DNA of 64,000 nt from an uncultured Lacinutrix sp. (GTDB lineage: Bacteria > Bacteroidota > Bacteroidia > Flavobacteriales > Flavobacteriaceae): positions 372,001-436,000 of the forward strand of contig NZ_CANMRQ010000002.1 in NCBI RefSeq assembly GCF_947500325.1, read 5' to 3'. A program made the translations under genes and the position numbers. Below, piece by piece: positions 7,840 to 63,754 of this stretch. Every line of letters starts with the position of its first letter. Positions within the stretch are counted from its first letter, which is position 1. Below the pieces are notes generated by a model that saw nothing but the letters and a program-made list of their open reading frames with translations, did not search any database and was not told where the DNA came from.

Positions 7840-10722
7840 CTACAACTTTATAAGCTTAGTGGTTGCTGTTGTTCCTAATTTATTTTCCGTTTTTATAATA
7901 TACATGCCATTAGAAAGGTCTTCTATATTGAAATTTTCACCTTTTTTAAAATCACCACTTAAGGCTTTTATTAGTTTACCTGAAACATCATAAACTTCTA
8001 GTTTAGAAATCGCTTTGTTAATAGTAAATGAATTTTTAGTTGGGTTTGGAAATAATGTTAGTTTACTTTCTAAACTATAATTGTTAGTAGACAAGGTTTG
8101 AGAATTTTTATTCCCATACATTTTAAACTGTCCTGCAACTACGTTTATTGGAGTTGAGGTATCTGTAATATTAATTGAAGTTGTTCCTGTAGGATCCATT
8201 AAATCATACCAAATGCCAGTATATGGGAAATTTGGAATTATGTTTTGAGAATTAACATCAAAGTTTGCTAGAATAACAACATTTTTAAGCTCAGATGATA
8301 GTAATGTATCATCCCAAATATAAATTTTAGGCGTTAAATTTCCAGAATCTATAGAATAATTACCTTCAAAAACAGCTTCCTCAGTTTTTAAAAGATTAAT
8401 TCTAGCCCAATCATTATATATTTTGTTTCTATTTGTATCTGCTAACCAATTATTACTCCATTGCGGTTGCGGTTTTGTATCTAATTTGCAATCTCCAGAA
8501 GCTGCATCACTATCTGTATTAACACTTCCATTATTACATGTGAAAATTGAGTTTTCCATGCCTAATGCTCCAAAATGCCATATCATTTTTGGACCAGGAA
8601 CAGTTAAAGTAACGGCTCCCAAAGCAGACATTCTAGACAATGCCGTATTTAAATCTTGTACATCATGAGATGGATTTGATTGTTGTCCAAATTGAAGGTT
8701 TTTATACATTAATCGTTCTTCATCATGACTTTCTGCATAACCAATTAATCTAGGCGCAATAAAGTTGCGACTATCATGACCAACACCAGAAATATCATTA
8801 TTAGAATTATAACCCATAGTTAATTGGTTATAATTAGTAGTCATTTTGCCCCAAAGCATAATACCTTTTGGTTCACTTTCATTTACTCTGTAATCTGCCC
8901 ATTCTTTTTCTTCTTGATTACCTCCTAAATGTTCAAAAATAACATAATGTGTTGGGTCCAAACTCCATGAATAATCTGCATATTCTTTTAGAATAGCAAC
9001 ACGATCTGCTTGATAGCTATTGGTACAACCTTCGTCATTAGCTGTACAGTTTTGGGTAAACCCTTTTGTTAAATCCCAACGAAATCCATCAATTTTAAAA
9101 TTGTCTACCCAATGTTGTATTACACGTTTTACATAGTCTTTAGTTCTTGGGTTTGAATGATCAAAATCATAACCCACGTTATAACTGTGTCTTGCATCTT
9201 CATTTAAATATGGGTTTTCGCTATTTGGTTGTCCCCAACCATCATTGTCTGAGTCGTTCATCCACATTCTTACCATAGGACTTCTTCCAAAAGCATGATT
9301 TAAAGCGACGTCTAAAATGACAGCAATATCATTTTGGTGGCATAAGTCTATAAATTCTTTTAACTTGTCTTCGGTGCCATAAAACTTATCTAAGGCCATA
9401 TGATAAGAGGTGTTATAGCCCCAACTTTCATTACCTTCAAACTCCATTACGGGCATTAATTGAATAGCATTGATATTTAAGTTTTTAAAATAATCAATCT
9501 TATCAATTAAATCTTGAAAGTTTCTATCTGCATCAAAATCTCTTACTAAAACTTCGTAGATAATTAAATCTTCTTTTTTAGGCTTTTGAAAGTTGGTTAC
9601 TTGCCATGGATAATTACTTTGACCAGTTTGTAAAACTGTAACTTCTCGTTCTTGTCCAACAGGGTAACTTGGTAGATTTGGGTATGAAGTTGAAGGGATA
9701 AACGGATCGTCAAAAGGAGATAATACCAGTGTTGAATATGGGTCTGCTGTTTTTACTAGAGCTGGAGAATTTGTAGCAGCTGTTTTATCTACTACCCAGT
9801 ATTGATAAGTTTCTATTTGACCAGGAGTTAAGCCTGTTAATTCGATCCAGAATTTATTGTTTCTAGTCACATCTTTTTTCATTGCATAACTAGTGTCTGG
9901 TTGCCAATTGTTAAAACTTCCAGCGACATAAACAAAGTCCTTGCCTGTAGCGTATAAGACTAATATAGCTGTGTTGTCATCAATATAAGTTATGCCATCT
10001 TCATAGGTAGTTGGCATAATGCCAACATTACTTCCAGGGTCTATAATTACATTAAAAACATTGGTTACAATATTTCCTGCTAGATTTACTTCTAGTTCAT
10101 AATTTTGATTGTCTATAATGTTAGTATGAGTATAAGAGTAAGTAGATATGTTTGATTGAGAATCTAAAACCACTCCATTTGCTCTTAAAGTATAATTTGC
10201 ATTTCCTCCAGTATTATTAGCATTTATAGCTAACATTTCTCCTGCATTAATTATAGTAGTAGAATTAGTTTGAGGCGTGTTTTGTATAACTTGAAACGAG
10301 CCAACATCTAATGTTATATCTTGAGATTTCTTGTCGCCTGAACCATCATTTGCTTTTATTAAAAAGCCTATTCTCCCAATACCTGTTCTGCTATAAAAAG
10401 TGTTAGGTGTAAATGAAATCGAATAAGTGTCATTACCACTATTGTAGGTTAGTTTGTTTGTTTCGTTAGAGTCTGTCCACATGCCGTTAGTAGGGCAGTC
10501 TTGTATGTTTTGCAGATTTAAGTCAAAAGACCAAGACCATATATAAAGGGAGTTGTCTGTTATTCCCCAGGTCGCTTCGTTAATACTATTGCCATCAATA
10601 GTAATAGTAATTGTTTCATTTTCTTCAAATGGATTTGGGCTTACAGAATATGTTATATTTTGTTGTTGTGCGTAGCTTCCAAGCGTAAGAAGAATAAATA
10701 AATATAGTATGTTTTTTTTCAT
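7840..10722 (-). CDS. Secreted GH13 alpha-amylase-type enzyme with T9SS sorting domain
   Basis: A 960-residue extracellular starch-active enzyme. Order: signal peptide (MKKNILYLFILLTLGSYA); an Ig-like N-terminal domain (about 25-140); a second beta domain; a CBM48-like module with FVYVAGSFNNW (about 255-345); the GH13 barrel from about 385; a C-terminal beta domain; and a type A T9SS tail (FPNPTKNSF ... ending TTKLIKL). Catalytic residues are D550 in DGFRWDLTKGF, E597 in VIFEHLGG and D667 in AESHDEERL. The T9SS tail implies export across the outer membrane and surface attachment or release. It is the last gene of the susC-D-E operon, so it supplies the oligosaccharides that the SusCD pair imports. 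Exact specificity (alpha-amylase versus pullulanase-like) cannot be read from the sequence. Confidence 0.93.
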   Translation of the reverse strand: MKKNILYLFILLTLGSYAQQQNITYSVSPNPFEENETITITIDGNSINEATWGITDNSLYIWSWSFDLNLQNIQDCPTNGMWTDSNETNKLTYNSGNDTYSISFTPNTFYSRTGIGRIGFLIKANDGSGDKKSQDITLDVGSFQVIQNTPQTNSTTIINAGEMLAINANNTGGNANYTLRANGVVLDSQSNISTYSYTHTNIIDNQNYELEVNLAGNIVTNVFNVIIDPGSNVGIMPTTYEDGITYIDDNTAILVLYATGKDFVYVAGSFNNWQPDTSYAMKKDVTRNNKFWIELTGLTPGQIETYQYWVVDKTAATNSPALVKTADPYSTLVLSPFDDPFIPSTSYPNLPSYPVGQEREVTVLQTGQSNYPWQVTNFQKPKKEDLIIYEVLVRDFDADRNFQDLIDKIDYFKNLNINAIQLMPVMEFEGNESWGYNTSYHMALDKFYGTEDKLKEFIDLCHQNDIAVILDVALNHAFGRSPMVRMWMNDSDNDGWGQPNSENPYLNEDARHSYNVGYDFDHSNPRTKDYVKRVIQHWVDNFKIDGFRWDLTKGFTQNCTANDEGCTNSYQADRVAILKEYADYSWSLDPTHYVIFEHLGGNQEEKEWADYRVNESEPKGIMLWGKMTTNYNQLTMGYNSNNDISGVGHDSRNFIAPRLIGYAESHDEERLMYKNLQFGQQSNPSHDVQDLNTALSRMSALGAVTLTVPGPKMIWHFGALGMENSIFTCNNGSVNTDSDAASGDCKLDTKPQPQWSNNWLADTNRNKIYNDWARINLLKTEEAVFEGNYSIDSGNLTPKIYIWDDTLLSSELKNVVILANFDVNSQNIIPNFPYTGIWYDLMDPTGTTSINITDTSTPINVVAGQFKMYGNKNSQTLSTNNYSLESKLTLFPNPTKNSFTINKAISKLEVYDVSGKLIKALSGDFKKGENFNIEDLSNGMYIIKTENKLGTTATTKLIKL

Positions 10723-62257: not shown

Positions 62258-62297
62258 TAAAAAAAGGCTATCTATTTAATGAGATAGTCTTTTTTGT
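62258..62297. terminator. Bidirectional terminator
   Basis: A hairpin with AAAAAAGGCTATCT on one side and AGATAGTCTTTTTT on the other (one wobble) around an 8-base loop. It separates the convergent small exported protein and mannosyltransferase genes and overlaps the latter's 3' end. Confidence 0.8.
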
Positions 62298-63754
62298 TTT
62301 ATAAATACTTCCCAAATAAAAAAACCATAGACTACTAGATATTCAAAACCAATAATCCAGAGGTTTTCTGTATGATCTGTATTGGCATAAGCGAGATAAC
62401 TTATTATAATTATAAAACTCCAAACTAAAGGAAATTTGTACGTTGTAAAAACACTTAAACTAAGAATAGTTGCTATATACCAAGGATGTACAGTAGTGCT
62501 TGTAAATAAATAAAAGGTAAAAGCAAAAAGCATTACTGTTATTAATTGCTTTGTATTTGAGTTCTTTTTAAAGTATGATAAGTATAAAATATAGAGCACG
62601 GTTAGTATGGGTAATATTTTACCAATAATAGCAATTTCATTCCAACCTCTAAATAAATAACCTATTTCTCGAGCCACATAATATATACTAGCATTAAACT
62701 CAAAATTACCAAACCATAAACCTACAGTTTTAGAATAGTTGTCTATAAATTGTGTTGAGAAAAAAGGTGCAAATATTATAAGTGTTGTAATACCAACGAT
62801 TAGGTAAAAACTAATTAGTTTTATCATTCCTGACTTTTGACTGGGCTCAATGTGAACTTTAGCAGAAACTTCCATTGTGTCATTGCGAGGAGTTTGCGAT
62901 GTGGCAATCTCATTAATTGAAACAGATTGTTTCATTTTACTCTCGATAACGTTGTTTTTTTTCTTTGTTAAAAACCACCAAAAAAATAATGGTAAAAACA
63001 TAAGTGGAACCAATTTTGTTGCAATAGATAAGGCGAAAATAACTGCTGCTAATTTCCATTTATTGCTATGTAATAAATACAAACTCCATACTAAAAAGAA
63101 AATCATAACACCTTCAAAATGCAGGTTGCCAGTAAGTTCAATAATAATAAATGGGTTAAGAATGTACCAGAAAATATTATGTATTGGTAATTTAAGTTTT
63201 TCTAATAATTTTTTACCAAAGTACAGTGTTCCAAAATCTGCAGCGATAATTAGTAAACGTAATACAGCAGCAGACCCAACAATACTTTTTCCTGCAAAGA
63301 GTCCAGCAATAATAAAACACAATTGATTTACTGGAGGATAATTAGTATAATGGCTAGCATTTAATTCTCGCATACCAATATAGAGTTCTTGCGCTTGTGC
63401 TATTGGTAATTCTCCATTGGATATAAAAGATTGGGGTGTGTGTAAATAGGGATTAAAACCTTCAAGAACCATACGGCCGTCCCAAATAAAACGATAGAAG
63501 TCTTGCGATAAATTAGGAATAGCAAGAATAAAAATAGCTCTAAATACAAAAGCTAATGCCGTTAAAAAACGTGTGTTATCTTTATTGCTTTCTACTAATT
63601 TGTAAAACAGAAAAAATAACGTAACATAAATACTAATAAGTTTTATATAGTCTGTTCTTGCTAAATTATATGCAAACACAACATAAAGTACAACACTTAT
63701 AAGTGTAAATAAAAGTGGTAATTTATTGGTTTTAAATAAAGCTAAATTGAACAT
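62276..63754 (-). CDS. Membrane mannosyltransferase-like protein (GT87/GT-C type) with an in-frame repeat insertion
   Basis: A 492-residue GT-C glycosyltransferase with about 12 membrane helices. The first large loop carries NLSQDFYRFIWDGRMVLEGFNPY, the Asp-containing signature of polyprenol-phosphate-mannose-dependent mannosyltransferases, and YTNYPPVNQLCF follows as expected. Between two helices, residues about 268-312 form an unusual hydrophilic loop that includes EIATSQTPRNDT. At DNA level this loop is an interspersed repeat of the TCATTGCGAGGAG type (62877-62934), read through without a stop. The enzyme therefore probably tolerates an inserted element. Sugar and acceptor are unknown. Confidence 0.87.
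   Translation of the reverse strand: MFNLALFKTNKLPLLFTLISVVLYVVFAYNLARTDYIKLISIYVTLFFLFYKLVESNKDNTRFLTALAFVFRAIFILAIPNLSQDFYRFIWDGRMVLEGFNPYLHTPQSFISNGELPIAQAQELYIGMRELNASHYTNYPPVNQLCFIIAGLFAGKSIVGSAAVLRLLIIAADFGTLYFGKKLLEKLKLPIHNIFWYILNPFIIIELTGNLHFEGVMIFFLVWSLYLLHSNKWKLAAVIFALSIATKLVPLMFLPLFFWWFLTKKKNNVIESKMKQSVSINEIATSQTPRNDTMEVSAKVHIEPSQKSGMIKLISFYLIVGITTLIIFAPFFSTQFIDNYSKTVGLWFGNFEFNASIYYVAREIGYLFRGWNEIAIIGKILPILTVLYILYLSYFKKNSNTKQLITVMLFAFTFYLFTSTTVHPWYIATILSLSVFTTYKFPLVWSFIIIISYLAYANTDHTENLWIIGFEYLVVYGFFIWEVFIKQKRLSH
62877..62934. repeat. Interspersed palindromic repeat inserted inside the mannosyltransferase gene
   Basis: GTGTCATTGCGAGGAG, then GTGGCAATCTCATTAATTGA, then a small hairpin TGAAAC-AGATT-GTTTCA (62918-62934). 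This is the widespread bacterial intergenic repeat type with TCATTGCGAGGA and GCAATCTC ends. It sits in frame in a loop-encoding part of the gene. Confidence 0.65.

Follow-up and report, generated by a model that had tools for sequence, protein, structure and literature searches.

A hydrophilic loop in a mannosyltransferase-like membrane protein of an uncultured Lacinutrix sp. contains an inverted pair of REP-like palindromic units that is read in frame, and in related genera this loop has been occupied repeatedly by members of two repeat families. Both repeat families flank small GIY-YIG nuclease genes, type by type, and in one case a complete REP-GIY-YIG-REP unit is accompanied by a target duplication at a place where relatives have an empty site. 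Judging from sequence comparison, we give a probability of about 0.7 to a joint reading of these results, in which the window holds an in-frame REP-like pair in a tolerant and recurrently used loop, and in which GIY-YIG nucleases would mobilise their cognate repeats. Here, the window is the whole stretch of DNA that was analysed (64,000 nucleotides), and positions refer to it unless a contig or locus is named.

The host gene (62276–63754, minus strand) encodes a multi-spanning membrane protein of 492 amino acids. Its description as mannosyltransferase-like comes from a Pfam match to PF05007 (1.9e-05; 25.2 bits against a cut-off of 23.4), which is the only family on which the assignment rests, the score for GT87 being under its cut-off. 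The open reading frame is intact, and a relative of the gene is found in 13/13 genomes of the genus. Outside the loop, dN/dS ranges from 0.07 to 0.13 in comparisons with seven orthologues, and the gene is under purifying selection. The loop is located between two hydrophobic segments and is likely cytoplasmic, as suggested by its positive charges. On the opposite strand, an open frame of 149 amino acids (62877–63326, plus strand) exists and starts at the repeat, in agreement with the original prediction, which had called it misleading; it is judged to be no gene, because it lies wholly within the conserved minus-strand gene. The orthologue of relative G004 (G004:C1:2804919-2806414) is matched in two overlapping pieces, one of them with internal stops; either the gene is disrupted or the assembly of this 84% complete genome is faulty here.

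As predicted, the motif TCATTGCGAGGAG...GCAATCT (62880–62910, plus strand) is read through in frame and without a stop within the 492-residue minus-strand frame. It belongs to unit A (62878–62910, plus strand), a TGTC-tagged ATTGC...GCAAT palindromic unit close to the consensus, with the tag at 62878, which reads TGTCATTGCGAGGAGTTTGCGATGTGGCAATCT and falls within NEIATSQTPRNDT as read on the minus strand. A copy elsewhere in the same genome (G000:C1:447577) is 84% identical to unit A over 49 bp. Unit B (62924–62951, minus strand; CGTTATCGAGAGTAAAATGAAACAATCT), which is read as VIESKMKQS, is the inverted and decayed partner of unit A, with 22/28 bases equal to CG plus TCATTGCGAATGAAATGAAGCAATCT in a copy from another genome, G121. 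Units A and B form an inverted pair of 74 bp, the coding-strand reading of which is VIESKMKQSVSINEIATSQTPRND. This pair accounts for residues ~268–293 of the span 268–312 that had been attributed to the repeat, and the rest of the span is other loop sequence with what may be a remnant of the second family of repeats (TCATTCCTG-CTTT; 62824–62837, plus strand), read around SGMI and adjoining the following membrane helix. The remnant was sought after being noticed, so its p value of 0.002 against base shuffles is post hoc; clear copies of the second family are found at the same end of the loop in orthologues G008 and G073.

The small hairpin described in the original prediction proved to be weak. 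A 5-bp stem can be recognised by inspection, the fold of the single window unit is no better than those of shuffled sequences (z −0.11), and the fold of the whole pair is slightly better (z −1.82). Good folding was obtained for a repeat copy from contig C3 (z −3.79). A repeat search of 62740–63045 gave no inverted repeats of at least 12. Exact TCATTGCGAGGAG occurs only once in the 64-kb window, and a second match with two mismatches is near chance (0.48 matches expected).

The pattern TCATTGCGAN{6,30}GCAATCT retrieves 143 copies from the genus, present in 13/13 genomes with 2 to 39 copies each, against one match for the reversed control. Only six of these copies are in this genome, where the closest to the window copy are the one at C1:447577 and a cluster on C3, whose members carry a CGTC tag; Tandem Repeats Finder reported no array at the C3 locus. 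The window repeat type is also present in 64/159 genomes drawn from the family, with two matches for the control. The second repeat family, GATTCCTGC..GCAGGAATGAC, reads IPAFAGMT where it is intact, and its palindrome, GTCATTCCTGC-GAAA-GCAGGAAT, has a stem of 8–9 bp by sequence, the fold giving 7/8 pairs. Short single units (two were checked) are open in 5/6 reading frames, compared with 2/6 for the window pair and 1/6 for the C3 compound element. Since openness is lower in the longer elements, ease of capture would hold more for single units than for long elements.

The loop differs in length among orthologues to the extent that had been anticipated (about 40 residues): the segment matching residues 252–325 comprises 74 amino acids in the Lacinutrix protein and 34 in G005, G007 and G012. 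These three loop-less orthologues are, however, nested among loop-bearing relatives inside the genus tree, so that loss in them is as likely as gain elsewhere, and the simple gain on a loop-less ancestor that was first proposed does not hold. As all 13 genomes of the genus carry the repeat family, the case of the same loop in a repeat-free species cannot arise within the genus. The repeat queries used for scoring the loops all came from copies located outside the host gene. The sample consisted of 41 orthologues, 12 from the genus and 29 from the family (29 loci used, out of 53 further family genomes that have an orthologue; G004 was left out), and five loops shorter than 10 amino acids were dropped, which left 36. 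One of the two repeat families was recognised in 11/36 loops, distributed over seven genera (p ≤ 0.01 against codon shuffles), the score for unit A of the window reaching z 14.5, whereas only 1/328 control windows elsewhere in the same proteins attained that significance. The loops that score as the window's repeat family are its own and those of G009, G002, G017, G063, G071 and G031, and those that score as the second family are found in G008, G001, G073 and G061. The length and sequence of the loop vary among orthologues, which would suit an ordinary low-complexity hydrophilic linker whose likeness to a repeat came from coincidence or codon bias; against the codon shuffles and the control windows, such an explanation becomes extremely improbable for the loops as a set, and chance resemblance is ruled out for the window copy.

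On the tree of the 41 orthologues, the presence of a recognisable repeat in the loop requires at least nine changes, a count obtained with many weak forks and with decayed copies treated as absent. This number bears on the possibility of one ancient insertion in the ancestor of several genera, followed by slow decay and by loss in G005, G007 and G012. Unit B and the loops of G009, G003, G002 and G017 do resemble decayed forms of one design, and the nesting of the loop-less three within the genus is compatible with such a loss. Nevertheless, all seven orthologues compared have a dS above 1 to the host gene, whereas unit A still shares 30/31 bases with a copy now present elsewhere, in G008; moreover, some orthologues hold the second family instead. 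We therefore regard a single old event as unlikely, although it retains appreciable weight. Recurrent capture is preferred, and the loop is an insertion-tolerant landing site, in which an inverted CGTC-tagged REP-like pair lengthens the protein. It provides a natural series within one protein (no repeat, clear repeat, decayed repeat and second family), in which the cost and the fate of a repeat-made peptide are measurable.

Regarding what may spread these repeats, the C3 cluster contains two 99-residue GIY-YIG genes, both with copies of the window's family on either side, and the REP-flanked small genes match the GIY-YIG domain PF01541. From 47 GIY-YIG matches with open frames shorter than 150 amino acids, 41 genes were retained (13 genomes), one contig-edge fragment and five matches near 22 bits being omitted. 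For 27 of these 41 genes, the 300-bp flanks on the 5′ and 3′ sides have an exact stretch of at least 15 nt in common, compared with 9/558 other open reading frames of the same loci. With eight motif patterns, composed after inspecting the flanks of the genus GIY-YIG genes, the same motif type is found on both sides of 28/41 GIY-YIG genes versus 3/541 control frames. A motif on one side only is seen in 67/541 control frames, and none of the eight motifs accompanies 3/41 GIY-YIG genes. A nuclease tree was built from the 34 intact genes, seven of the 41 being omitted as broken or short. On it, the motif type changes eight times, against a mean of 21 in 200 shuffles, none of which gave fewer than 17; the label of the second family (R2) appears in more than one place. 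The 34 genes occupy about 17 sites (18 if the neighbouring pair on C10 is separated), and gene counts therefore overstate their independence. Residues Y7, Y18, G20, R28, H32, E65 and N84 are invariant in 15 aligned GIY-YIG proteins of the genus, and we take these to be the expected catalytic positions. The window copy itself does not lie beside such a gene, as none of the seven places matching PF01541 in this genome is near G000:C2:434880.

The arrangement extends beyond the genus. In a wider set, comprising the best 80 of at least 563 relatives in named genomes, the flanks share at least 15 nt at 44/77 loci (three of the 80 had no flank) versus 1/94 control frames, and a motif is present on both sides at 42/80 loci, on one side at 23 and on neither at 15. 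Among the matches listed, motifs on both sides occur in many Bacteroidota and in contigs labelled Alphaproteobacteria, Lysobacterales, Marinospirillum, Limnohabitans, Gastranaerophilales and Nomurabacteria; also among the matches listed, Helicobacter, Deltaproteobacteria and a second Alphaproteobacteria contig have no motif. Within the family, the repeat was found in 18/20 genomes with the closest GIY-YIG clade versus 46/139 others, at a threshold picked post hoc, and, at 1e-15, in 47/80 genomes with a GIY-YIG match versus 17/79 without one, all of these counts including copies brought by the GIY-YIG loci themselves. The persistence of the repeat in 17/79 genomes without a match indicates that a resident nuclease is unnecessary for keeping it.

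The clearest case of movement is found on contig C10 (L103:7606-9250), where a repeat-GIY-YIG-repeat unit is located at the start of a dehydrogenase E2 gene. The N-terminus of the E2 protein, MSEKEIPAFAGNYE, is made up of the end of the GIY-YIG gene and a repeat of the second family. Copies of the E2 start are present to the left and right of the unit as a 27-bp target duplication, with 25/27 bases equal. Nine relatives have one uninterrupted E2 start and no such repeat in the 600 bp upstream; they represent 9 of the 11 relatives with E2, since G002 and G010 were unmatched by the text pattern used, and G009 had no E2 match. The relatives have neither REP nor GIY-YIG gene and the duplication lies outside both REPs, which argues that the repeats and the gene arrived together. 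In G003 (C26:389 kb; L111 ~9640-10500), two GIY-YIG genes are arranged in tandem behind a tRNA-Asn gene. An exact 86-nt repeat, which takes in the end of tRNA-Asn, borders the second of them on each side and one of 62 nt the first, and TCCCGATAGCTATCGGGA palindromes are contained in these exact duplications.

These data can be set against two other accounts of how repeats and enzymes are associated. The GIY-YIG genes might parasitise the repeats, the nuclease homing into existing REPs that are spread by something else. Mobile genes do enter REPs elsewhere, as described for ISPpu9 in the available text, and the repeats found in 17/79 family genomes without the nuclease would fit this view. On the other hand, the E2 site, although one site only, has an empty counterpart without REP in nine relatives and a duplication outside both repeats, and the motif types track the nuclease clades, which together leave homing into pre-existing repeats rather improbable. 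A transposase of the RAYT (Y1/HUH) type, mobilising these CATTGCGAG repeats as happens with GTAG REPs, is still harder to reconcile with the data and is considered very unlikely: there is one Y1_Tnp gene in this genome, but its 3.2-kb locus contains none of the eight motif types and has a different, 21-nt inverted flank. As a source for this genome only, a RAYT was rejected, the sole Y1_Tnp match (G000:C1:153598-153819) being without the studied repeats.

In the mobilisation by GIY-YIG nucleases that we prefer, the enzyme would act on its cognate palindromes by cutting a cruciform, single-stranded hairpins or the target, and repair after the cut would copy the repeat to new sites. Copying together with the gene would generate an autonomous unit, and copying without it would leave a solo repeat, as in the window. 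Most landings would be intergenic, with survivors in the tolerant loops and linkers of proteins, their survival being aided by the openness of short single units in as many as five of the six reading frames. As one such solo landing, the window copy would have persisted thanks to the tolerance of the loop for added residues. With a slight preference over its negation, we propose that REP-associated GIY-YIG families, each with its own palindrome and present in Bacteroidota and in the labelled contigs, may constitute a second class of REP mobiliser. These families would move as REP-nuclease-REP units, seed solo REPs recurrently into permissive loops and represent the missing mobiliser of CGTC-tagged REPs.

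Several known systems resemble parts of this arrangement. Stand-alone GIY-YIG homing endonuclease genes share with it a compact nuclease and an insertion whose site is empty in relatives, but here the flanking repeats are also dispersed as non-coding copies. The REPtrons, that is, RAYT genes with GTAG REPs, are similar in having a small nuclease gene with its own REP type that follows the enzyme clade, and solo REPs elsewhere (as described in the available text of PMC3733652 and PMC2817692). The genes studied here have cognate REPs on both sides as well; the enzyme, however, is a GIY-YIG nuclease of ~100 amino acids and no Y1 HUH transposase, and the repeats are CGTC- and not GTAG-tagged. By analogy, the GIY-YIG arrangement would work like a REPtron, without being one. 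According to the main text of the survey by Di Nocera et al. (2013; PMC3733652), CGTC-tagged REPs have a stem of 8 or 9 bp and a loop of 4 or 5, and are without a dedicated transposase. The repeats described here agree with that account in their tag (CGTC or TGTC, the class being defined by a terminal CGTC, TGTC or CCTC), in the AT at the first stem bases, in their inverted dimers and dispersed copies, in some copies being inside open reading frames and in their occurrence in Bacteroidetes, one of the named phyla (PMC3733652). The perfect stem of the window type (ATTGC/GCAAT), in contrast, is of only 5 bp, and the second family fits better; because of this stem the window type is called CGTC-tagged REP-like and is not assigned to families 1–4.

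REPs inside open reading frames, some of them in frame, are already in print (PMC3733652), and the RPEs of Rickettsia likewise are palindromic repeats in frame in proteins that probably work (available text, PMC3733652). The window repeat, which to judge by its comparisons is also in frame within an intact and selected gene that has insert-free orthologues, differs from the RPEs in that it is found in another phylum, that one loop has been struck repeatedly by two families, and that a partner nuclease is visible. With in-frame palindromic repeats known from Rickettsia and other REPs, the capture in the window is a further case of a known kind. What is seemingly new is the recurrence of capture at one loop and, even more, the partnership with GIY-YIG genes: in a search of the open-access literature by title and beginning of abstract, with subscription journals and preprints outside its scope, none of the papers listed connects GIY-YIG genes with REPs or with the palindromic repeats of bacteria at genome level. 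The term GIY-YIG has 0 occurrences in the main text of the 2013 REP survey (PMC3733652), and the terms palindrom, inverted repeat and flanked are all absent from the available text of the 2006 paper on the GIY-YIG superfamily (PMC1564403). GIY-YIG and RAYT are both among the genes exclusive to one Moraxella clade, unconnected in the text available (PMC9465073). REPs are widespread bacterial repeats, and the main text of the 2013 survey does not settle which agent disperses the CGTC-tagged class (PMC3733652). The GIY-YIG nuclease is a candidate for this role, and a nuclease gene with cognate flanks, an empty site and a target duplication opens the way to a direct bench test of CGTC-REP spread.

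Finally, the repeats lie in frame in other genes too. The notion that they are confined to intergenic DNA stands only as a tendency, since 5/30 further loci, which were the first places in each genome and hence a non-random choice, have the repeat within an open reading frame of at least 150 amino acids. These five, which include an orthologous pair, are the window gene itself, an HsdS gene of G012, an Eco57I-type methylase of G010 (L307), and an AcrB-type transporter in G005 (L289, scanned with Pfam) and in G011 (L309, similar by eye). In this genome, the dehydrogenase E2 gene holds a further coding copy. In a 792-kb sample of genus DNA, repeats were found within the coding sequence of HsdS (Methylase_S) in G008, G003 and G012, the G012 gene being the one just named, and within that of HsdM (HsdM_N, N6_Mtase) in G003. 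At L108:469-3668, L088:15174-16625 and L096:10021-11349, which come from three genomes, HsdS genes hold two or three of the repeats in frame, and an HsdM gene contains another repeat type.
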